The translations under genes and the position numbers were made by a program. From Tricholoma matsutake (taxonomy: Eukaryota; Basidiomycota; Agaricomycetes; Agaricales; Tricholomataceae), in assembly GCA_026075535.2 (NCBI GenBank), contig AP026539.1:620001-684000 (forward strand): 64,000 nt of DNA. The letters are read 5' to 3'. The notes beneath the pieces are model-generated. The model did no database searches. It had not been told where the DNA came from and saw only the letters and a program-made list of their open reading frames with translations. Shown in pieces: positions 1 through 63,490 of this stretch (position 1 is the first letter of the stretch; the number at the start of each line of letters is the position of its first letter).

Positions 1-3000
1 GAATACGCTGAACTAATCTCCATTTGAAGCCAGTTTATAATCTTCCATTCTGACATCATGATGATGCTTTGCATATAGCAGAGCTCCACAGCAGTGATGG
101 ATCTATAATGTTCCAACCCTTTGAGCCGATTCCATAAAGCCGGCACTAACTTGGCAGTTTCAGGTTCAGAAGGCCTGTCATTTAATAGCCCCATCATAGC
201 ATTGATATTATGTGTGATTGACCAAGTGTTTTCAGAAGGCTTTTCATCTGAACAAGCATGTAAGTCCTGGATAAAATCCTCGATTGCATGAAATACAGAT
301 ATTGAACTAAACATATCAACAAAAGATTCTGTTGGATGACGTTCTTTAATAATGTCAGCTTACTACCAAAGAATGAACATTTCATAATACATACGAAGAT
401 TAACTTCAATGGCTTCTGATGCATAAACATGAGTTATTTTTGAATTTGATTCAACAGTATCCTTTCTTGGATCATAAGGAGAATCGTCCATGGACATGTT
501 GTCTTCAGAGAGGGATGATAGCAATGATAATTCTTCATCACTTCCAAGACCAAAGGAATATGGTAATGTTCTAAGCAGGCCAAGAGTAGCATTCTTGACC
601 AGCTCAACAATATCAGGTTCCACAGGTGAAACCACAGAGTGAGCGCTGTCAACCTGCATACAATCATCATCTTGGGAAATAACATTTTGAGGAGGTCGGT
701 GTGTGTTTTCTTTCTCAAAGTCACTGTCGTTGTCTGAATTGTCAGTCAGTTGGTAATCGTCATCTTTAAATTATAAGGTAAATGCTATGAAAACATTTGA
801 TTGATACTATATTACATACCCATGTTTGTATCACCATCATATCCATCATCGATTGGCTTGCACGATGAAGAAGAAGGAATGAGTATACCATCAAACACAA
901 GTTTACTCTTTCCTTTTCGCTTCTTTTTGGCATTTGAAGATGAGACCGAGGAATTCTGTGGTGGTCTTGGTGGTGGAGCTGCTTTATTTAATAAGGAACA
1001 AGTTTCTGGTCAAGCATATTATCAGCAGAAAGTTTTATAACCAGAACTGACAAACGCTTACATCTTCAAGCGACTGGATTATTAATTTCATCGTGCACGG
1101 GGCCATCTGCTTTTCATTTATCAGTAACCAGAGTTAATATCAAGTACAATTGCATTACCAATATCCATGTTTGCCAGTCTTCTCTCATTCGTATCAGGCA
1201 GTCAGTTGTTGTTGATGGCATTCATGACTAAATTCAATGCAGCCTGGCCAGCTACAGGATAATCATTTGATGGCATTGAACTTTTATCTTGCTTAGTGTG
1301 TTGTCCTAAAATATAACAAGTTATCCAATGAAATCAAACTTATAAGGCATGAATACATACACTTTGAAGCGATGGTAGACTTATTGGTTTTCTTCTGACT
1401 TGGAGCTGCTGGACATTGCTCAAGGTAATCCATATGTTAAAAGTAATAGATTCATACCCTTTCTCTTTCTTGAAGGGCCATCCCTCTTAGTAGCTCTTTG
1501 AAAAGGTCTGACATCTCTTCCAACCAAATGTGGAATGAACTTTGCACCATCTGCTTCCTGTTCCAAAAACTCCGACACCACAAATTTTATGGCATTGATT
1601 GAACGACGGTCAGCATCCATCATCCTTGGATCCTCTAGTCCTTCAGGTAAAGAATGAGTATACCCCGTTGGGGCGTACAGCAAATCCTTGGCATGGACTC
1701 TATTTCCATTGATCTCAGCAGGAAAAGCACTCAGGAAAACTTTTGGATTGATGCATGCTTGGCATTCAATGGGAAGTTGTTGAAGGAAATAATTGTTTAT
1801 AAGAAGAAGATTTCAACAAGAATATTCAAAGAGATCATGGTTTTCCATCATTACGGGACCATCAGTCAACCAAGTTGCTTCATTTGAAGGCTCAATGGGA
1901 TCGTAAGCATCTTCGCTAAGCAAAAAATAAATTTCAGCATATCAACAAAAGCTGATGTAGATTGTGACTCACAGCATGCTTGTCATCTCAGGAGCTAGGG
2001 TGAAGATATTGCCATTTGGGAGCAACACGAAGCCTGCATGATGATTGGCTGATTGAGAAAGCATAGATGCTGGGGGATACATAACAACCATTATTCTGCA
2101 TGCTGAATCTGCAGGAGGTTTTCCTGGTGGAGACAAAGGTGGGCTGCCACCATGCTTGCAAAGGCTGCTAAATCCCATCAGCTTGAACGGATCTAGCTTG
2201 ATGTAGAGTCCCATGCTCAATAAGTTAAAGCGACCAGATTCATATCCCTCGTCAGCTGGCACAGCGACAAGTGAAAGCATTGCTGTCTCTGCACCTGGGT
2301 CATCCTTCAGGTCAATATGGCCATTTTTCTGACCAAAGTGACCCATGTCTGGGCTCATGTCAGTTGCTATGATAAAAACAATGTAAATTTACAAAATAAT
2401 AAATGTGTGTAACTAAAGACATACTTTCACATCCATCCCTTTGGATGGCAGACACAAGGTTCAATTGCATGGTGGGGTACATGCAGTTTTTGGGGACGCC
2501 AATTCATGGCATGTTAGTGGCCTCTGCAAGCAGTTCAAGGTGTTCCACAAATTTGACTGGCGCATGTTTTTGAATTCCTGCCATGCCAACTTTACCAGTG
2601 ATCTGAATTCCATGAGAATAGAATACGATGATAATAAATAATTAGGCGTACCTTCACAATGTCATGGTGGAGTACTTGATGCTCATCAAGAGTGTGATCA
2701 GCAACCTTGGCGGAGGCCATAGGCGATACTAATTGGCGAGAGCATTGATGAGAAGGTCCCAAAGTGTAGCATTGACTCCCCTTGACACCATTCAAACCAT
2801 TACAGTGTTCCCATGCAGTGCCCCCGATCCAAACGCCACCTTCCTTAACAGGATGCCCAGGCCTTGCTAGTGTCTTGTTGCCCACTATTGCTTTCTGGAT
2901 GTGGATCATTTCTTTGAGGATGCTGGGATCATTTGCATGTAACCAGGTACTGAAATAAAAATTTCACAAGATTGCCAGTATCAGAAAGGTCAAAACTTAC

Positions 3001-3448
3001 CAATTGCTGACCCACCAATCGCTGATCCACCCACCCAGAACATCATTTTCAGGATCCAGATCGTGCATGTCCCTTATAAAAACAAGGTTGTCATGATCAA
3101 TTTCAAGTATACCTTGAAATCATTGTAAATAACTGTAAAAAAAGTTAGAGGGCATTCACGCACCAAGGTTCAAAGCACTCTTGTCAGGACCCAATGGAAC
3201 TTCCAAACTTGCCTCGAAAGTTTCGAGAGCTTTCAAGCCTTCGACCAACGTATCTTGGATGTATACGAGAATGTGCCCAGGTGATAACAGGTCATGATCG
3301 TGGACCAATGGATGGGAATCGACCTGGAAGATGTAAGGAAATTGGCCATCTCGATTCACATCATATAGGAGCATGCTGCCTGGAACCTCCAGCTCCGAGG
3401 GCGCTATGGGGAGCATCCTCAGATAGATTGACATGTTCAACAACACCA
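1..3448 (-). pseudogene. TET/JBP-like 2OG-Fe(II) dioxygenase, multi-exon, runs off left edge
   Basis: Probable exons, read right to left: 3448-3164, 3112-3001, 2949-2652, 2602-2425, 2366-1973, 1915-1458, 1405-1363, 1305-1159 and further exons to position 1. They are separated by GT-AG introns of 49-58 bp. The catalytic exon (2366-1973) holds an HxD motif (NGHIDLKDD), a distal His in LCKHGGSPP and a downstream Arg in ACRIMVVMYPP, the Fe(II)/2-oxoglutarate pattern of TET/JBP enzymes, which oxidise 5-methylcytosine or thymine in DNA. Upstream exons (YDVNRDGQFPY, VLGGWISDWW) resemble the N-terminal half of basidiomycete members. The long Ser/Asp-rich C-terminal part is unrecognised. Frame is kept across introns except for TGA codons at 2504-2506, 1813-1815 and 1202-1204, each where CGA (Arg) would fit. 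The 5' end is lost into the palindrome tract near 3450. Family call is fairly sure; activity of this copy is doubtful. Confidence 0.68.
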
Positions 3449-4729
3449 ACGATCGTCAGCGCAATCGGTCTGCAGTTAAACTGCTGATGGAAAGACGCTA
3501 AGAAAAATAAAAAGAAAACAGAATGAAACAATAAGTGGCAACACCAAACAGCAGCCAGAAACAACAGAAAGAGCTGTCTGTAGTTGAACTACTGACAGAG
3601 TGTATACAGAAAAGTATAGAGCAAACGAGAATGGTGAGGATGAGATTACAATGGCAGGAAGAAAGAGAAAGTAAGGGGTGCAGATATAAAAGCATGTGAC
3701 AACATCATAAAAGTCAATTTTTAAATGCATGTAACTACATCAGGTAAGTACCAATAACAAGCATACTTAAGTTAACAACGTTCCTTGCTGTTCAACAGCA
3801 AGGAATAGTTCAAAGCCAATGGTGACAATCGAACACAGGAAGGCTGCCAACCAGGAGTTGAACCTCTCAGAACGTAAACGAGTAGGCAGAAACTGTCTGT
3901 GTGAATGGGTTGGTCTTCTTTGACAGACTTTCCTTGCCATTCAACGACGAGGAATAGTAAAGGTAAAAAGAAGACAAGAAGAAGTTGAATGTGAAGAGGG
4001 TAAAACATGGCATTCACCAAATGCCCAGATCAGAATAGGGACAGCGGTGAGGAACGAATGTTACCAACCGTTCAATGGCAGGCAACAACAACAAGAGAGA
4101 TTGTTGGAGCGGGAGAAAAGTGCCTCAAAATTTATAAGTCAAGCTAACTAGGAAACCCAACAATGTTCTTCATCAAGCTTGGGACCTCTCCAAACGTCGA
4201 CGAGTCACCTGACCAGTGGGGTTAGGGTTTTACTACTTTTTGCAACCAACAAAAATAGACCATGGAAGGCAGCAAAGTGTATGCTATAAGGACTAACAAC
4301 GGGAATTGACCTGGAAGATGTAAGAGAATCATTAACTGCCATTCAATAGCTGTTAATGATTGGAAAGATTTGAAGAACCTGTATTGTTGGAGGAAGTAAT
4401 GTTCGACAGCAGGAACGACAACAACGTTACAGGAAAAACAGATTGGAACTAATGTTCCCAGCAGTTGAACTGCAGGGAATGAACCCACAATGCTGTGGAA
4501 ATGCGTCTGAAAGAGGGTGTGCATCCACCAACTCTTGTAGAATCAGTACAACTTAAAGTCAGTAAACACTAAGTCAATTTCTGATTCACAAACTTCGAAC
4601 AATGTAAATGATTTTGACAGTTCAATATACAAAAATAATAAAACTAAGATTTTCTAGCTGTTGAACAGCCAAAAAATCAAAAATAGCAAGTTTCAGGCAC
4701 CAATGAATAAAAAAAACAAGGCTCCTCTA

Positions 4730-4888
4730 TGGAGATTATACTCCTGATCTATGTGTAGATTGTTCCCATTAAGATTGACCTAGTGGAACAAGTATGAATG
4801 ACAAAATGGCTGGAGAATGAAGTCACATGTGCCAAATATCGACATCTCCCCCCCCCAAGAGATGTCAATATTTGGTGCATGTGACTTC
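4730..4888 (+). repeat. Left arm of a 155-bp inverted pair, ending in a long hairpin
   Basis: The arm starts TGGAGATTATACTCCTGATC and ends in a hairpin at 4819-4888 with 30-base arms (starting GAAGTCACATG, near-perfect) and a loop of nine C. Its reverse complement matches 8081-8240 over roughly 155 bp with scattered substitutions. The start looks LTR-like, so the pair may be two LTR fragments in opposite orientation, but I see no target duplication. Confidence 0.75.
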
Positions 4889-6329
4889 TTTAGGGTATGT
4901 TTGAAAGTGAAAGGTAGCAAATGCAGCACAAAGACCATTATTCCATGCTGTTGAATTGCAAGGAACAACATAATATTATTGATTAAACAATAAATTAGTG
5001 TCAAGAAACCGTGATTCAATCGCAGAAAACAAAAAAGCATAGCGGGCGTTCCGAGCAATCGAAATGCTAGGATTAACGTAACATGGCACAAACAGAATGG
5101 TAAAATGGACTCATATAGCAGGAATGTTCCATGTAGTAGAGCATAGATGTTCCCTGCAGTCGAACTTCGGGGAACAAATGTTCAAAGCAAGGTGGAAGAA
5201 TGGTTCCAATTTATTCGAACAGAAATTCCTTGCACATTCGATCCCCGCATTGGCCTGAAACAACGTTCCCAACTGCAGGGCACAACGACTTTCACCAAAG
5301 TTGTTAAATGGTAATTCCCTGCCGTTGAACGGCTGGGAATGACGAAAAACCAGCCGACAAATGTAATGCAATAGGCATGCGTATCATAGAGACCCATTTA
5401 CAATGGTTCAACTACTGTAAATGCTCAAATGAACCTCTGGAATTTGAGAGCACACCAAGAAGCAGGAGCATCAGAATATGGTGCTGTTGGACAGCAATGA
5501 ACACTGGGAAGCCCAGGCCAGGAAGCTACATAGTTCACTGCAGTTCAACTGCTGTAAACTCCCAATGAACTACTCAACTATAAATGGAGCGTGCAGTAAG
5601 GTAGAGAGGGAGAGAGCTAGATGGGTCCAGTGTACATAGATGCTGTTGTGCACCATACGGCATAGACATTCTCTGCAGTTGAACTGCTAAGAATTTGATG
5701 GATATGGTAGAAGGAACCTCCAGCAGCAAAGGCAGTGCCCGAGCACGGCGTAGACATTCTCTGCAGTTGAACTGCTGAGAATTTGACAGTTATGGAAGCA
5801 AGCACCAGCAATGAACACAGAACCCGCGCAAAGGAGTAGAGAGTAAGCAGACATGTAGAAAAAAAGGTAGAGTAGTATTCCCTGTGGTTGAACCGCTGGG
5901 AATGAGAATCTGAGTATGAAGTTTGTGGTGTAAGACAAATGTTGAAGATGGTCAACATGGTAGCACCGCCACAGATGTGACATCATCAATCATCAATCAA
6001 TCGCATCCATTGTCAAGAACATCCTTTCATTCCACACACAACGAATTCTCCACAGTTCAACTGCAGAGAATGTCGATATCAGGATGACAATGGGAATGGG
6101 GAAGGCCACGACAATGCGACGCTGTGGAATATGACAGCGCCAAATGAATGAACGGTGGGGAAACAGATGGAAGGACAAGACACGGGCTATGAGGACGAGG
6201 CAAACCAGGCGTCGTTTGGGCTGCAGGTAAGTGTTTTGTATTCTCCTTTCTTTATATTCATCATTAAATCAACTTCTATTTTCTCTATGATCTTCCTGGG
6301 TAAGGACCAGAATGCTAGCACCAACTGCA

Positions 6330-6540
6330 GCAACCAGTGACACACCACCTGCCAACAGCCTTGGGAGCAACTGCCCGTGGGGTGGATGGTGAGTAGGATG
6401 ATGCCAGTGATGACTGCAGGGTACGGGCCAGTGGGAACTGGGGAAGGGGCACGATGACAACGAACAGAGGACTACAATGAATGGGGAATGATGCCCAGGA
6501 TGACCAAACCTCATGAGCAAGTGCTCATGGAGTAAATGGC
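6330..6540. repeat. Dispersed GAGCAGTTGCTC-type repeat, diverged copy
   Basis: The text around 6335-6400 (a CACACCACCTGCC stretch, then GGGAGCAACTGC, then GGGGTGGATGG) matches the tandem repeat at 63.0-63.5 kb and the copies near 33.9-34.1 kb. It sits inside the palindrome tract and has no convincing ORF. Confidence 0.5.
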
Positions 6541-8080
6541 AGGTGGAAGGATGGGAGGTGCCAAAGATTGCAGAGACGGCGAGGGTGGTCGGCAACAACA
6601 GTGTTTCATGCGCATTCTTTTATTTTTCATTTTTTGTTGTCTGGACCTTATATAACACGGAAGGGTTGATTGCAGTTGAACTGCTATGAATGCGAACAGT
6701 GGAACCAGGCCGTAACCATTCGGCATGAAATGTTGGTCATCTTGAACAGAAATTCTTACCCGCTGTTCAACAGCAGGTAACGACAAAACATATCAGAACA
6801 TCCAAGGGCGCTAGTATGGAAGGAACGTTACCCATCGTTCAACGGCAGGTAAAGACTAATGTTATCCGAAGATGCAGAGAGGTTGGTATGCAAGGAATGT
6901 TACCTACTGTTGAATGGCAGGTAATGACAATGTCTGGTATCTTCTCTGCAGTTCAACTGCTGAGAATTGACTGGCTGTTGTAGAAATGACTGAGATCCAG
7001 TGCATGTGGGAAAGTCAGCAGACACACATTGCAAGGATTGCTTAAACCAATGTCGAGTATGCTGTAGATGGGTCCATTCTCTGCAGTTGAACTGCTGAGA
7101 AATTGGTTCCAATTGAAAGAGGCACAATCATCAAGACCTTAGGTGAAGAAAAGATGTGGTGAGTAGGCAGACACATAAGCAAGATGATATATCAGCCTTC
7201 CCTGTGGTTGAACCACTGGGAAACAGAGAGAAATGAAGGTTTCTCTATGTTTGAAATTTCATGGTACAAGGGGGATGTCACACATCTCAGTCACTTGTCA
7301 CCATAGTGGCTGCGCTCAAGTCCACTATACTTATCTCTTATTCCCAGTGGTTCAACTGCAGGGAATGCTGAGCTGCTATCTCATTTATGCATATGTCTAC
7401 ATCCCTCATTACCAGGGGTTCAACCGCCGGGAACACTAAGCTATTATCTTATGTGTACACGTCACAAGCATGTACGGTGCTCAATCACAGCGGTTTCTAC
7501 AGCAGCAGCCAGTGACTTCTCAGCAGTTCAACTGCAGAGACGTTCTACAGCAAACTCAGCAGTTTGGAGTCTTCATGCATCGAACATTATCGCCCTCTCA
7601 TTTTCTCGGTAGTTCTGCTGGCCATACTGAATAAAAGACCTTTGGCATATGATGCTTTCTATGTGGCATTCTCCTTTGAAAAGCTACTCTGAAACTCTCA
7701 ACAGTTCAACTGCAGAGAATAGGACCACTGTCACCTATGGGTGCTGGCTTTAGCGCTTATTATTCGATGCAACTCTCAGCAGTGTTCCTTACCCACCTGC
7801 TCTATGTTACTTATACTTCCTCATCATTGAACTGCAGGATCTTCTGGTCAAATGACCGACCATTCCTGTCCCACCTTTGTTCCCTGTGGTTGAGCCAGGG
7901 TTCCTTGATTTGTTGTTCCTAGCAGTTCAACTGCAAGGAACAAGCTCCACTTTGCCTTATTTCTCACTGTGTTGAACTGCCGGTTCTATGTGCACGTCAT
8001 CTTGCCTTGTCCCCAGCAGTTCAATTGTGTGGAATCCTCATTTGTTGTGTGTTTTTTCTGCTTCTTGCTTTTTCAAACAA

Positions 8081-8240
8081 GTCACATGCACCAAATATCG
8101 ACATCTCTCGGGGGGGGGGGGAGAGATGTTGATATTTGGTGCACGTGAACTCTCTCCTGCTCCATTATGTCTTTTATACCTGTTCTGCTAGGTTGAACCT
8201 AACAGAACCGATTTCTTATTGCTTCAGGAGTATATGCCCA
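8081..8240 (-). repeat. Right arm of the 155-bp inverted pair
   Basis: A hairpin at 8081-8148 has about 29-base arms and an oligo-G loop (about 11 G), followed by sequence that aligns with the reverse complement of 4730-4818, for example CTAGGT near 8191 and AGGAGTATA near 8229. The loop is oligo-G where the left arm has oligo-C, as expected for the same unit read on the other strand. Confidence 0.75.
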
Positions 8241-8592
8241 ATGGAAGTGCATTGAAATTTTTTGTTCTTTGTGGCTGAATTTTGGCATTTTCCGATAATT
8301 GGCTGTTCAAAACCCGTTTTCATTGATATTGTATCTTGTATCTGCTACTGACCTCTTCCCTGCTGTTCAACAGCTAGAGAATGATGGTCGTATAGTTCTA
8401 TGTTCGATTTATTGGTGGGCTGGCTCTGGACTGCCCGCCCAAGTCTCTGTTCTGTCACCAGTCATCCTTATCGTGTTTGGCAGCTCCTTGCAGTTGAACT
8501 ACAGAGAATGTTTACCAAGTGCATTGAATTTTACCATAAACAACCTTGATATTCTGGCTCTTAAGTAAACCCTGTGCCATTAAACGGCAGAT

Positions 8593-9047
8593 AACATTCT
8601 ATTCTCTCTATATATTTGAGCAGTATAAGATTGGGATTCACTCTGTGAAGAACAAAAGCATCTGCAAAATATATGAGACTTGTAAAAATTACACACATAT
8701 AGTATGGAGGATGCCTTGGCCATCCTTGAAACATCATTGACGATCCAAGTCATTTTGGAGTGTATTTGTACATATTTACACCTACTCTTCAATGCAGCCT
8801 TTGATGGAACAATTCCTAGAAGCTGTGGAGCTCATGCAACTCATTGCATCAAATGTTTGTGGAATAGAAAATCTTCTACATCTTGCACTGGTGTGCACAA
8901 GGACTGCTGGACCAGCACTAGAAGAACTTTGGAAAAGAAACCATGACTTGAAGATGCTACTGTGTTGCCTACCAATCTCAGGCGATAAGCTAATCGTACG
9001 CTTGATATCATCTTGGTCAAAGCCATACTTATCTTTCCACATGTTAT
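8593..9047. other. No recognisable gene
   Basis: Short overlapping frames on both strands have no recognisable motif or splice pattern. The stretch separates the palindrome tract from a hAT-like end. Confidence 0.5.
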
Positions 9048-9230
9048 TAGTGTTTAAAGGTCCAGTCCAGTCCAGTTTTTGACTTCCAAATGGGGCAACC
9101 AGCAACTGCAACCAGTCTAGGACCGACCTAGAAATTGGAGGACCGCAACCGGACCCTTTAGGACTGGTCCTAATCGGTCCATGGACTGAAAAAAGACTGG
9201 TTTGGACCAGTTTTTTGTCATAAGATTTAT
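9048..9230 (+). repeat. hAT-like terminal fragment rich in GGTCC/CCGGTC motifs
   Basis: Begins TAGTGTTTAAAGGTCCAGTC, the same end as the hAT-like element at 24736 (TAGTGTTTGAAAGTCCGGTC), and continues with many copies of GGTCC, CCAGTC and ACCGGACC. No matching right end was found, so the copy is truncated or one-ended. The short repeats inside the end may be subterminal transposase sites (inference). Confidence 0.5.
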
Positions 9231-9509
9231 TGTGCCAAATAACCCATATGTATCTCAACAAATATGACCATCACCTCATATATATTATATTAATGGATAG
9301 AGATTGTAATGCTACATAGACCGATCCAACATTTAAGCAATTCTGTCAAGATTTGACTGAGATATGGCCAAAACTGAAAGGACATGCATTCAAGTTGCGG
9401 TTTGTAGTTTGTAATTTGTAGTTTGTAGTTGCACTCATTTAGGCTGTTGTATAAATAAAATCCCATGGTACAGATAAATAATATAATGAACTTAAAAACT
9501 TAAACTTAC

Positions 9510-10296
9510 ACAGCATTGTCAAAGACTTGTTGTCTATATGTTTCATTAGCAAGTACCCAAAAGCAACAGAAAGAAAGACCAAACTACCTTGTTTTTTTTA
9601 CAGGACTTGGCGTAGATGGAGTGGCGCTATCAAATGTATTGCAGTCAGATGACAAGATCAACCTTGGAACCAAGACATACACCCAGTTTTTGTTGGATGA
9701 AGGAGTGCTTGGATTAGTTTTAGCCTTTTTAGGTGAGTCTCTTGTAGGGCTGGAAGAAAGGATCGTATGTTACTTATAAGGGTACACATCATAAAGTGAC
9801 AATACCTTGGAACGAATGCATCATCCAATTCAGAATCACCCTCATTGACAGTTTGTTTCTTGCCACTGTGCATACAAAGAGGTAGGGGAAAAAAAACATC
9901 AGCACGAAAACATATATCATACAATTATCAGTCACACCACATCAACTTCTTGGGTGTTCGAGTCATAGGAGGAGTTGCAGCCTTATGATGTAAAGCCTTT
10001 TTCGGTGGTGTAACAATCCTATAGTGGAACATGAAAATTCATATGTTCAGTATCCAGAAGATATGCAGGGATAATACTAACGCTTCTTCCTCTACACTTT
10101 CATCAGAATCATCACCAATCGACTCTCCACTGAATAGAAAAGAAGTCAGTACAGAACATTTAATGAATATAAATAGCAATACTAACTCCTCATAATCGTC
10201 ATCATCAGAGCCTTCAATGGACTCATCATCATCAACAATGAAGGGATCAGAACAGACACATTCTTTTGCCAAAGTCTTGCTTCTATGAGGAGCCAT
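9510..10296 (-). CDS. Uncharacterised acidic, spliced protein (5' part)
   Basis: Seven consecutive exons keep one frame through GT-AG introns: 10296-10187, 10129-10082, 10018-9947, 9865-9806, 9740-9663, 9605-9588 and 9533-9510. The ATG at 10296 opens MAPHRSKTLAKECV, followed by an Asp/Glu/Ser-rich segment (IVDDDESIEGSDDDDYE) and a Pro/Lys-rich stretch (TPPKKALHHK, SPKKAKTNPSTPSS). This resembles disordered N-termini of nuclear proteins but no domain is visible. A splice donor GTAAGT at 9509 implies more coding sequence, which I could not follow; the hAT-like fragment at 9048-9230 lies on that side and may have broken the gene. Seven clean splice pairs in frame argue for a real gene. Function unknown. 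Confidence 0.55.
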
Positions 10297-11198
10297 TGAG
10301 AGGAGCAGTGGGAGGTAAGGCAAGAAACTATAGATTTCATATTCTTAATGAGGCTTTTAAGCACAAATTTCCAGGCACATGATTAATGAGAGATAAAACA
10401 CTGAAGGATACAAACCGAATAGATGACTGACAAGTTTTACGAGGCAAACAAAACATTCTCATGGAACAGGCAGCCGTAAAGAAATTTCTTGCTACTGGGG
10501 GCTGAAAGCCGAACCATGGCAAAGGAAATAAAATGCATCAAACTCTATAACACACAACTATTCCACAAGGAGAATAAAAAGAAGTGCTAGTTGTCGAACT
10601 TGCACATACCGGAAAACTATTAACCCAAGCGATGAGAATTCCAAGGACAATCCCAATACAAATGTATGACAAAATATCCACCCTGAGGCACATTGTCACA
10701 AACTCATGCTAATTACTAGGTCGAAATAGTCTCATGTAACGTTATCATGTAGAGTTTCCCTGCAGGAAACTTGTAATGAGCATACAGTGAATATGATGTA
10801 CCGATGCACCTGAATAGTGCCCATATACTAGAAGCCGCAGAAAATGGGATTGCCAAGTGTATTTGGCCAGGTACTGGAACAAGTTTATGCGGCAGACTAG
10901 CAAGAATGAATGATATATGGTTACGAGGCATAGGACAAACAACAGCACGACTCCATATTTCCCTCTGATATCGACAAGTCCAGATACATGGATCAGTACT
11001 ACAACCAATCTTCTGCACATATGTTCTGCTTCTACAAATATGCTGGCCAATATTGATATCATGTACAGGAGCACGGCTGGAGTTACTTTTAGCTGGGCAT
11101 AGCCCAAGACATGCTCAGCTTCATCTATATCAAGAAGTAAGCACAATTTTTCAGGATGATTGTGATTATGATATTAACTAATAACTCATAGGCTGATG
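10297..11198. other. Spacer between two divergent genes
   Basis: A 133-codon hydrophobic minus-strand frame (11146-10745) spans much of it, but it has no splice signals or recognisable motif and may be chance. The 5' exons of the plus-strand gene to the right may lie here. Confidence 0.4.
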
Positions 11199-12180
11199 GC
11201 GCATCCACAACTGCAACACCAATATATGTTGAGAGACATGACGGTTGGAAGCTGACCCAGCAGATAGACAATATTGGCAATCAGGAGGAGCTTGTTCTTT
11301 GCCTTCAGGGAATTCTTTGCTGGAAGGACTTGCCTCCTATCAGAAAAACATGTAGGATGTAAGTTCTCTGACTTTATTGTCATTATCCTTCTCACTGCTA
11401 TTTTGTTATTCTAGTGAGTTCAGACAACTAAGATATCTACAACAATTGGTCACGCTCACATTGCTAGGGTCCTCAAGCATGAGAGACTCCATCACAGCGA
11501 TTCAAGCAATCCACCACACCTTTTTGCGAGCAGTTCTGGATGATAGCATGGAAGAATGGGCTCCAACAATGTTTGAAGACTATGAAGCTGTCGACATGGG
11601 CAACCATTATTTTACTAATTGAAAGCACATCTCATCGTCTGAAGTGGTAAGGTTCAAAGCAGGTGTAGATCCCGATGGCATGCTTGAAGCAGTATCAGAA
11701 GGTACAGATGTTGCTCACACGTGGGAGAATGAGGTGGAGTACTTCGAGCTATGCAAACATACTGGTGGTCAGAAAAGGTATGCATGCACACTTACCACTC
11801 ACTACGATGACTAAATTATATCACACTAATGCAGATACAATGTTATTGATCCCATCAAATTCAGGATTGGCGATATCGTGGAGGCCCAGGTGTCTTTTGT
11901 CATCATCCCTCTCAAAGGGAAAAAATACAAAATGATCATCGTATTGGTGCGCTTACCCTACTTGATAGTACACCACTCAAAGTAAGTTACAGTATTATGA
12001 TGACAAACATACACATCATTGACTAATGTTACGCAGGATGCAGAAAAGGCAAAATATCATGAACATTTACAAGACATTCCAAGGCCCCTCTCATTGAAGT
12101 GCAAAGTTGGGTATTATGAAGATGAGGAAGAAGAAACTAGGTTTAGAATGCATAAAATGGCCATTGATAAACATGAGTAG
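11199..12180 (+). pseudogene. Uncharacterised basidiomycete repeat-family protein, 3' part
   Basis: Three 3' exons are clear: one ending at 11777, then 11835-11981 and 12037-12180, joined by GT-AG introns of 57 and 55 bp and ending in TAG at 12178. The protein contains GVDPDGMLEAVSEG, then FRIGDIVEAQVSFVVIPL and DIPRPLSLKCKVGYYEDE. I recognise this arrangement as a hypothetical-protein family dispersed in mushroom genomes, often near transposons; its function is unknown. A one-base frame offset near 11950 (VLVRLPYL where the other frame gives ALTLLDSTPLK) suggests decay. Upstream frames at 11199-11366 (VERHDGWKLTQQIDN) and 11377-11622 may be earlier exons, but their joints are unclear. Confidence 0.5.
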
Positions 12181-12736
12181 TGATAGAACAATAATAATTC
12201 ACTTGTAGATTCAGTCATGATTCAGGTCCCATTAAGCGGTGTGAATCATCCATAAATTGCCCAGAATTACTCTGACCATCAAATTTTCAAGCGCAATTCA
12301 AGTGTCGATTAAGCACACATCAAGGAAAGTCCTGTTTTGGGTTAATATTTAAAATAAGACTTGAGAGAACGTGAATCACAAAGTGAAACATGATTCAGAA
12401 GGCGATTTGACGATTCAGAGTTTTTGATGATTCATGTTTGTAACTGATCAATAACAATTGTAATGAAACTATCAATAACAGTTTGTAATCGAATGTATTG
12501 AAGTCATTACTATAGGTTACCGGTAATTTAGATAGCTGGATGAAAAATTTCCTTTAATACTCAAAATCCGCATCTCAGCTAATTTTTTTGTCCCACGGTT
12601 AGTAAAGTCAGTAATTTTTGTAATGGTTGCTGGAATGTGGGAAAAAATTACTGACCGTGGGGAAAACAGACATGGAAAAACAGTCACACTGAATTTTTCA
12701 TCGATTCCCGGTTTGAAGAATGAGTCTTAACTTTGT
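12181..12736. other. AT-rich intergenic stretch
   Basis: No gene seen. From about 12440 it contains scattered GTTTGTAAT motifs related to the minisatellite that follows and to the one at 21.3-21.9 kb. Confidence 0.5.
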
Positions 12737-13240
12737 TAAGGACTCGTAACTTTTATTGACCTCATTACAAACTTTTACCAACCTCATTACAAACTTTTAC
12801 TAGCCTCATTACAAACTTTTAGTTACCTCATTACAAAACTTTACTGACCATATTACAAACTTTTATTGACCTCATTACAAACTTCTACTAGCCTCATTAC
12901 AAACTTTTAGTTACCTCATTACAAACTTTCACTGACCTCATTACAAAACTTTACTGACCATACTCATTACAAAACTTTACTGACCATATTACAAACTTTT
13001 ACTGACCTCATTACAAGCCTTTATTAACCACATTACAAACTCATTACAAACTTTTGGTTACCTCATTACAAAACTTTACTGACCATATTACAAACTTTTA
13101 CTGACTTCATTACAAACTTTTATTTACCTCATTACAAAACCTTACTGACCTCATTATAAACTTTTATTTACCTCATTCCAAACTTTTACTATCCTCATGA
13201 CAAAACTTTACTGACTTCCTTACAAACTTTACTGACCTCA
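12737..13240 (+). repeat. 22-bp minisatellite (CCTCATTACAAACTTTTACT)
   Basis: About twenty tandem units of a 22-mer such as CCTCATTACAAACTTTTACT plus two variable bases, with substitutions and a few partial units. One or two reverse-complement units reappear at 15216-15250, on the far side of the purine/pyrimidine tract, so the array belongs to a larger inverted repeat. Noncoding. Confidence 0.9.
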
Positions 13241-33859: not shown

Positions 33860-34110
33860 ACCCACCATCCACCCCACAAGGACACACCACCCACCTCCAG
33901 CCTTGTGAGCCACTGCTCGTGGGGTGGATGGTGGGTGGAATGATGACGAGGGGGATGGGAGACGAGAGGAAAGGGAGATGAAGGGGGAGGCAGAGGGAGA
34001 CAACGAGGGAGATGGGACAGGAGATGACAGCACACCACCCGCCCCCAGCCTCACAAGCAACTGCTCGTGGGGTGGATCATGGGTGGAACAATGACAAGGA
34101 AGGGGGGTGC
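33860..34110. repeat. GAGCAGTTGCTC-type repeat, two diverged copies
   Basis: CACACCACCCACC, then CCTTGTGAGCCACTGCTCGT and GGGGTGGATGG near 33890-33935, and again near 34030-34090 (CTCACAAGCAACTGCTCGTG). These match the units at 62990-63490 in reverse orientation. Noncoding. Confidence 0.65.
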
Positions 34111-62989: not shown

Positions 62990-63490
62990 CACTGTTGTCT
63001 GTCCTTCCACGCATGATCCACCCCATGAGCAGTTGCTCATGAGCCTGGGGGCGGGTGGTGCATCATCATCTCCTATCCCTGCCCCTGGGCATCATTCCAC
63101 CCATGTTCCACCCCACGAGCAGTTGCTCATGAGGCTGGGGGTGGGTGGCTTGTCATTGTTGTCATTCCACCCATGATCCACCACACAAGCAGTTGCTCAT
63201 GAGGCTGTGGGCAGGTGGTGTGTCATTGTCATCTCCTATCCCTGCACCTGGGCATCATTCTACCCATGTTCCACCCCACAGACAGTTGCTCGTGAGGCTG
63301 GGGGTGGGTGGCTTGTCATCATTGTTGTTCCACCCACAATCCACCCCATGAGCAGTTGCTCGTGAGGCTGGGGGTGGGTGGTGTGTTGTTGTCGTCTCCT
63401 GTCCCTGTGCCTGGGCATCATTCCCCCTACGATCCACCCCACAAGCAGTTGCTTGTGAGGCTGGAAGTGGGTAGCTTATCATTGTTTGTC
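62990..63490 (+). repeat. Tandem repeat with central palindrome GAGCAGTTGCTC
   Basis: Six copies of a palindrome near 63024, 63114, 63183, 63276, 63346 and 63440 (CATGAGCAGTTGCTCATGAG and variants), alternately about 70 and 92 bp apart, each followed by GCTGGGGGTGGGTGG. One copy is CACAAGCAGTTGCTTGTGAG, with matched changes in both arms. Diverged relatives lie at 6330-6540 and 33860-34110. Confidence 0.88.

Follow-up and report, generated by a model that had tools for sequence, protein, structure and literature searches.

A dense array of covarying 25-bp palindromes in a giant Helitron of Tricholoma matsutake, tentatively read as recognition sites for a homodimeric protein

We analysed a 64,000-nucleotide stretch of the Tricholoma matsutake genome (contig AP026539.1, C2:620001-684000; hereafter the window), and searched the genome as 161,040,721 bases in 13 contigs. 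Positions refer to the window unless a contig is given. Between 3466 and 8594, the window holds 36 related odd palindromes of 25 bp whose arms covary and which, judging by the surrounding sequence, belong to a giant Helitron with Helentron/Helitron2-like ends. With a probability of roughly 0.45, we read these palindromes as cis-acting duplex recognition sites of the element for a homodimeric protein that would control the region.

Sites were detected with a symmetric weight matrix (cut-off score at least 9), and 50 Markov-1 sequences of the array region served as a control. The matrix gives no credit for pairing, but it was seeded from palindromic sites. Compared to the 36 sites of the array, the control sequences gave a mean of 0.18 sites and never more than one, and only six sites were found in the remaining 58.7 kb or so of the window. 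TTSAA-centred dyads with at least 8 of 12 pairs numbered 30, against a null mean of 0.42 and a maximum of 2. A chance origin of the palindromes, which similar numbers in shuffled sequence of equal composition would have indicated, is therefore rejected. A model that had previously seen only the letters and open reading frames (ORFs) of this DNA (the sequence-only reading) described a dense array of close to forty dyads. This was a fair estimate, as one more palindrome (8183-8207) scores under the matrix cut-off, and every inner and outer arm type it quoted was found in the array. The approximate consensus is TTCYC-W-GCNGTT-S-AACNGC-W-GRGAA, with 12 pairs per dyad and a density of about 7 sites per kb. 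The odd 25-bp layout proposed with arms of up to 12 bases is real, but a single site (3781-3805) forms a perfect 12-bp dyad, and 24 of the 31 distinct rows of the window alignment show no pairing at ±7 from the centre.

This alignment, in which covariation was assessed, comprised 32 window sites (31 distinct rows), 31 of them chosen by matrix score and one (8183-8207) by palindromy. Over the 12 pairs, 46 cells were changed on both sides, compared to 15.7 in shuffles; none of 500 shuffles reached this number, and slid controls gave 7-15. When pairs rather than cells with a double change were counted, 2 of 500 shuffles reached the observed number, and 85.8% of the cells were paired, as against 74.9% after shuffling. 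Covariation was strong at ±4, 8, 9 and 10 (0/1000 shuffles each) and marginal at ±5 (0.041); ±3 reached significance only when all copies were pooled (230 distinct sites). Positions ±1, 2, 6, 11 and 12 showed no covariation and were simply conserved. Pairing at ±7 was seen in 5 of 30 distinct window sites, where 11.5 were expected, and was somewhat commoner in distant copies. The sites were also thinned against relatedness, using cut-offs of 22, 20 and 18 identical bases out of 25, at or above which no two sites were retained together. Covariation survived in the resulting sets of 20, 11 and 8 window sites (0/1000 shuffles each) and was likewise above shuffles in all-copy sets of 52, 31 and 17 sites; in the harshest all-copy thinning (7 sites), 64 of 1000 shuffles reached the observed value. 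The compensating arm changes suggested earlier thus withstand comparison with shuffled controls, and an exact repeat without covariation is ruled out.

The array recurs at about 12 loci in two subfamilies, with four close relatives of the window copy (93-96%; one partial, one split into two blocks) and some seven distant relatives at about 70-78%. The block 6942-8234 is inverted between the two subfamilies. Our copy comparison covers those parts of the array that can be aligned to the window, and its rows share ancestry and are not independent. Where both subfamilies align, sites occupy the same positions, although some are degraded and five are cut by gaps. In close copies, the spacers had diverged by 6.5%, positions ±8 to 12 by 0-1.6%, ±7 by 2.2%, and the centre not at all (0/91); ±3 to 6 had diverged by 4-10%, and almost every one of these changes either creates or abolishes a pair. 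Between subfamilies, 23% divergence of the spacers compares with 4-10% at ±8 to 12, 2.5% at ±1 and 6% at ±2. When base and CpG context were matched, we counted 64 site differences in close copies (149.5 expected) and 353 in distant ones (711.8 expected), i.e., sites diverge about half as much as matched spacers. Together with the covariation, these lower substitution rates support the earlier proposal that the dyad itself is kept. Between subfamilies, clear cases of compensation are few, the cleanest being a T-A to A-T exchange at ±4 of the site centred at 3793; pairs ±8 to 10 vary from site to site and not in step between copies.

A strict palindrome pattern gave 158 matches genome-wide, compared to 8 in the control; 134 of them lie in the array loci examined and 24 outside those loci. 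Among 50 strict matches listed (C1 and part of C2), 48 were in arrays. The two outside are about the chance level, and a host regulon was therefore discarded. In viral contigs, the pattern was found in 92 stretches, with one site each among the 80 listed, and a matrix scan of these contigs gave at most three sites per stretch, mostly weak, and no array.

We propose that a homodimeric DNA-binding protein, of the element or of the host, would dock on the duplex dyads and thereby control the region, and we infer that this control would concern the expression of the element's genes or their protection from silencing. A footprint of about 25 bp is envisaged for one dimer, with its main contacts at the TTSAA centre, at G/C of ±3, 5 and 6, and at the TT/AA ends, which would lie one helical turn away; the density of the sites could give specificity for the element. 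The array lies between the ATG at 3434 of a leftward element gene and a conserved block starting at 8762. The first (weak) site is 32 bp and the first strong site 140 bp from this ATG, and with a coding start so near, a regulatory role for the leftward gene would be natural. Several findings weigh against the proposal. In close copies, ±3 (6.6%) and ±4 (10.4%) are not below the spacers, and between subfamilies ±3 (20%), ±4 (26%), ±7 (21%) and the centre (30%) have diverged about as far as the spacers. In distant copies, the centre is A or T at 3 of 20 comparable sites. Covariation at ±4, 8, 9 and 10 is unlike the independent arm tolerance of a dimer with fixed specificity, so that the dimer model needs either several site classes or a cruciform step. 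Furthermore, many window sites carry T.T or A.A at ±7, an asymmetry not expected of a strict two-fold site, and no DNA-binding domain was found in the selected element ORFs scanned, whose frames are broken.

Covariation favours a structural role, and the conserved ends and inner core favour recognition of sequence; we rank a homodimer on duplex DNA first and a cruciform second. In a structural role, which we consider rather unlikely, the dyads would form cruciforms in the duplex or hairpins of the displaced strand during rolling-circle replication, at which the HUH/Rep protein of the element binds or the helicase slows; stem pairs would be exchangeable and the TTSAA loop fixed. Indeed, the stem covaries while the loop is conserved, and five hand-picked 25-mers fold as single-stranded DNA (-6.3 to -10.9 kcal/mol, z -3.7 to -7.9). 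The terminator of Helraiser is described as a 3' hairpin (PMC4778049). However, a single-strand loop should distinguish G from C, which a cruciform need not do, and 299 of 326 sites have a G or C centre, with neither strand preferred (153 G, 146 C). At 5 of 20 comparable sites, G and C are exchanged at the centre between subfamilies, in some or all distant copies. Since a G:C pair on the dyad axis looks alike from both strands and a loop base of one strand does not, a duplex site or a cruciform is favoured. The mismatch at ±7 lies within the stem, the array is kilobases away from the termini, and no such description for other Helitrons was found in our literature search. RNA hairpins in a leftward transcript that runs through the array into ATG 3434 appear improbable. 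The same five sites fold stably as RNA, the C13 copy has a one-sided base composition along the greater part of its array, and raw mismatches lean towards G.U on the leftward strand (A.C 169 and G.T 117 on the plus strand; p = 0.0025, with rows that are not independent). This excess was gone after de-duplication (A.C 42, G.T 36; p = 0.57), and the RNA strand signal was discarded; the absence of a G.T skew favours an element at the duplex level or a cruciform. There was also no consistent bias per array block, and neither the equal use of G and C at the centre nor the inversion of block 6942-8234 between subfamilies fits an RNA.

Arm matching and G/C differences at the centre could be explained without any factor, and without selection on symmetry, if template switching between the arms (quasi-palindrome correction) made the palindromes, kept them perfect and flipped their centres. 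The centre and ±7, as diverged as the spacers between subfamilies, agree with this. Nevertheless, we give it little credence: the conservation of ±1, 2 and 8 to 12 above the spacers in both comparisons is left unexplained, as are the low values of the centre (0%) and ±7 (2.2%) against spacers at 6.5% in close copies, and tracts over ±8 to 10 should repair ±7, yet it is mismatched in 24 of 31 rows. It is highly improbable that the 25-mers arose by repeated insertion of a tiny mobile element, each 25-mer being one such element. Many spacers are unrelated, as such insertions would have it, but in the aligned regions we saw no copy that had cleanly gained or lost a 25-mer. Five sites (3478, 6768, 7829, 7928 and 8195) are each interrupted in one copy by a gap of more than one base, and none of these gaps removes exactly one 25-mer; in distant copies, single-base gaps are present at 4953 and 5061. 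As described above, 48 of the 50 strict matches listed lie in arrays. Neither empty sites nor dispersed copies, as in miniature inverted-repeat transposable elements (MITEs) or REP-like sequences, were found in the aligned regions or with the strict pattern. Thus, among the three options of the sequence-only reading, dimer-binding sites or a cruciform fit best, the one-strand RNA hairpin is less favoured, and the mobile element is unsupported.

What that reading had missed is the host, a giant repeated Helitron, which we recognize by its RepHel ORFs, a palindrome in the 3' region and 12-bp inverted repeats close to either end. Homology between copies extends some 14 kb leftward from the array and stops sharply at C2:609596; on the right, it resumes after 9048-9477 and reaches 12750. 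About 6.3 kb of the copy at C2:7.74 Mb are deleted from the window copy at 9048-9477. ORFs left of the window matched Helitron_like_N (PF14214, E 2e-30), PIF1 (PF05970, E 3.4e-24) and DUF6570 (E 7.6e-22) in Pfam. The DUF6570, Helitron_like_N and PIF1 ORFs are consecutive on the minus strand, with one hitless ORF in between, and the element thus has the Rep and PIF1-type helicase that define the Helitron superfamily. Two apparent array-less copies were set aside as uninformative, since homology stops within RepHel in the 4.0 and 3.0 kb examined. Also within RepHel, 1034 bp of the C11 copy (C11:6885007-6892006) run in the opposite orientation to the window copy.

On the minus strand, the element starts with T/TACGAGTCCTTAACAAAGTTAAG and ends with TTAAGGACTCGTACCTGCCAGTACTGGCCCTCACCCCCAAG. 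Its termini, 5' (T)TACGAGTCC and 3' CCCCCAAG, differ from those of canonical Helitron1 elements (5' TC, 3' CTRR, insertion between A and T). For Helentrons and Helitron2, subterminal inverted repeats of 12 bp at either end and a palindrome close to the 3' terminus have been described (PMC4067079). Correspondingly, we found the 12-bp repeats ACGAGTCCTTAA near the 5' end and TTAAGGACTCGT near the 3' end, and the palindrome GCCAGTACTGGC 13 nt before the end. RepHel and the T before the 5' end, which precedes 31 of 31 exact 5' ends, are further points of likeness to the elements described there. Helentrons and Helitron2 insert between T and T; the 3' flank was seen here in two copies only, with T directly after the end in one. 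Among the 40 3'-end matches listed, 18 were long and reached the end, one was long but 33 bp short, and 21 were short. With at most one mismatch allowed, we counted 100 occurrences of the 5' end motif (control 0); being commoner than the array, it also marks other family members. The end motifs are about 23 kb apart in the window copy and 26 kb apart in a C13 copy, whose 3' end is short by some 33 bp and whose interior was examined in part; in two further copies, at least one of which contains other repeats, the distances are about 40 and 45 kb. The element differs from the Helentrons and Helitron2 of that source in its span of about 23-45 kb and its internal array of 36 dyads. No Pfam match to an apurinic/apyrimidinic endonuclease, which Helentrons have fused to RepHel, was found in the C-terminal ORFs scanned (frames broken, unspliced), and none to an OTU domain in the element ORFs scanned.

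The codon positions of the leftward ORF beside the array have diverged by 0.164, 0.138 and, at the third position, 0.396 in distant copies, indicating that it is coding. Its exon at 1972-2388 has five paralogous matches elsewhere in the genome (28-30%), and HID and HGG are invariant in the four paralogous frames compared with it. We take this HID...HGG arrangement to resemble the Fe(II)/2-oxoglutarate dioxygenase motif, and the product is possibly a dioxygenase, which we regard as a lead only. Pfam and PDB sequence searches with the leftward gene gave no match, and an AlphaFold model of one exon from a single sequence (predicted local distance difference test score 35.7) was not used. TET/JBP genes are reported from fungal Helitron2, the relevant PE type having HxE (PMC12730594). 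On the right, the block 8762-9047 is conserved, but its codon-position values (0.094, 0.110, 0.135) do not prove coding.

In the subterminal arrays of Spm/En elements, many short sites for TnpA, a protein of the element, adjoin element genes; in contrast to the matsutake array, these lie at the termini and are not 25-bp dyads. VANC motif arrays, which let VANDAL elements escape methylation (PMC5735166), are similar in that short motifs lie in non-coding transposon DNA near genes, with a family-restricted density. In VANC-type anti-silencing, a protein encoded by the element binds the motif and removes methylation. The matsutake array may perhaps work in the same way. It is not a VANC member because motif form and protein differ: VANC motifs are 9 bp long and accumulate by tandem repeats in the account given there, whereas the matsutake sites are covarying 25-bp palindromes with mostly unrelated spacers and no known VANC-like protein. 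A bolder version, which we hold to be unlikely, sees in the 5-kb array a sequence-specific anti-silencing platform recruiting an element protein, possibly the HxD...H dioxygenase-like (perhaps TET/JBP-related) neighbour, that would keep the element unmethylated; the several symmetric site classes would then reflect co-evolution of the homodimer and its sites. Bacterial repetitive extragenic palindromic (REP) sequences are also clustered palindromes, linked to the tyrosine transposase TnpA-REP in the sources consulted (PMC2817692, PMC8266576); unlike these, the matsutake array is confined to one family of a eukaryotic Helitron and is not dispersed over the host. A literature search limited largely to open-access papers yielded no described equivalent among palindromic or hairpin arrays of Helitrons, fungal cases included. 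The array offers a natural series of covarying palindromes with measurable constraint in a eukaryotic transposon, in about 12 copies of two subfamilies. If a factor binds to them, this would reveal by what means giant Helitrons regulate themselves or evade silencing.

Table 1. Features of the window, with positions, strand (a dot where no strand applies) and basis of the assignment.
Feature	Position	Strand	Basis
Palindrome array, whole	3466-8594	.	palindrome, matrix and covariation analysis; recurs at about 12 loci
25-mer site, weak	3466-3490	.	matrix scan
25-mer site	3574-3598	.	matrix scan, copy alignment
25-mer site, perfect 12-bp dyad; ±4 T-A, but A-T in 7/7 aligned distant copies (compensatory)	3781-3805	.	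matrix scan, copy alignment
25-mer site, weak	3848-3872	.	matrix scan
25-mer site	3930-3954	.	matrix scan, copy alignment
25-mer site	4061-4085	.	matrix scan, copy alignment
25-mer site	4332-4356	.	matrix scan, copy alignment
25-mer site	4455-4479	.	matrix scan, copy alignment
25-mer site, degraded in distant copies	4651-4675	.	matrix scan, copy alignment
25-mer site	4941-4965	.	matrix scan, copy alignment
25-mer site, weak	5049-5073	.	matrix scan
25-mer site	5150-5174	.	matrix scan, copy alignment
25-mer site	5315-5339	.	matrix scan, copy alignment
25-mer site	5397-5421	.	matrix scan, copy alignment
25-mer site	5534-5558	.	matrix scan, copy alignment
25-mer site	5669-5693	.	matrix scan, copy alignment
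25-mer site	5757-5781	.	matrix scan, copy alignment
25-mer site	5878-5902	.	matrix scan, copy alignment
25-mer site	6046-6070	.	matrix scan, copy alignment
25-mer site	6666-6690	.	matrix scan, copy alignment
25-mer site	6756-6780	.	matrix scan, copy alignment
25-mer site	6828-6852	.	matrix scan, copy alignment
25-mer site	6900-6924	.	matrix scan, copy alignment
25-mer site	6942-6966	.	matrix scan, copy alignment
25-mer site	7077-7101	.	matrix scan, copy alignment
25-mer site	7198-7222	.	matrix scan, copy alignment
25-mer site	7341-7365	.	matrix scan, copy alignment
25-mer site	7409-7433	.	matrix scan, copy alignment
25-mer site	7517-7541	.	matrix scan, copy alignment
25-mer site	7695-7719	.	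matrix scan, copy alignment
25-mer site, weak	7817-7841	.	matrix scan
25-mer site	7916-7940	.	matrix scan, copy alignment
25-mer site	8010-8034	.	matrix scan, copy alignment
25-mer palindrome under matrix cut-off	8183-8207	.	palindromy, copy alignment
25-mer site	8356-8380	.	matrix scan, copy alignment
25-mer site	8484-8508	.	matrix scan, copy alignment
25-mer site, weak	8570-8594	.	matrix scan
Giant Helitron, part within window, interrupted 9048-9477	1-12750	-	RepHel and 3' end (C2:609596) left of window
Helitron 5' end, T-TACGAGTCCTTAAC..., with terminal inverted repeat	12440-12750	-	copy comparison, end-motif search
Stretch unmatched in other copies	9048-9477	.	copy comparison
Leftward element gene, first coding block; ATG 3434-3432 adjoins array	3159-3434	-	codon-position divergence
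Leftward gene, later coding block; HID...HGG residues	1972-2388	-	paralogue comparison
Rightward ORF, weak F-box-like match (E 0.012, under cut-off)	8741-9079	+	Pfam; conserved DNA block 8762-9047
Inverted repeat in array (72.5%), left arm	4661-4891	+	window self-comparison
Same inverted repeat, right arm, pairs with 4661-4891	8075-8310	-	window self-comparison
Hairpin of about 75 bp, C-run loop	4816-4891	.	repeat comparisons
Second hairpin, about 70 bp, G-run loop	8079-8148	.	repeat comparisons

The spacers had been described as not being repeats of each other. This holds for many of them, but three pairs, all in stretches that take in sites, are related, namely 5657-5754 with 5745-5840 (78%), 5755-5902 with 7075-7222 (71%) and the 72.5% inverted repeat of Table 1. 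A divergent-promoter symmetry was rejected, as the flip in composition and polarity near 7280 of the window is not general; the C13 copy keeps one composition over the greater part of the array. Among spacer changes (3470-8592) private to single close copies, 235 of 382 were C>T or G>A and 144 of 382 lay in a CpG context, a pattern that looks like methylation decay of the copies. The two hairpins of about 70-75 bp with C- or G-run loops sit in the array in opposite orientation, and other Helitron copies have members of the same family some 310-410 bp inward of their 5' ends. Related short repeats occur in the middle of the array (6335-6405) and elsewhere in the window at 33876-34099 and 62995-63486.

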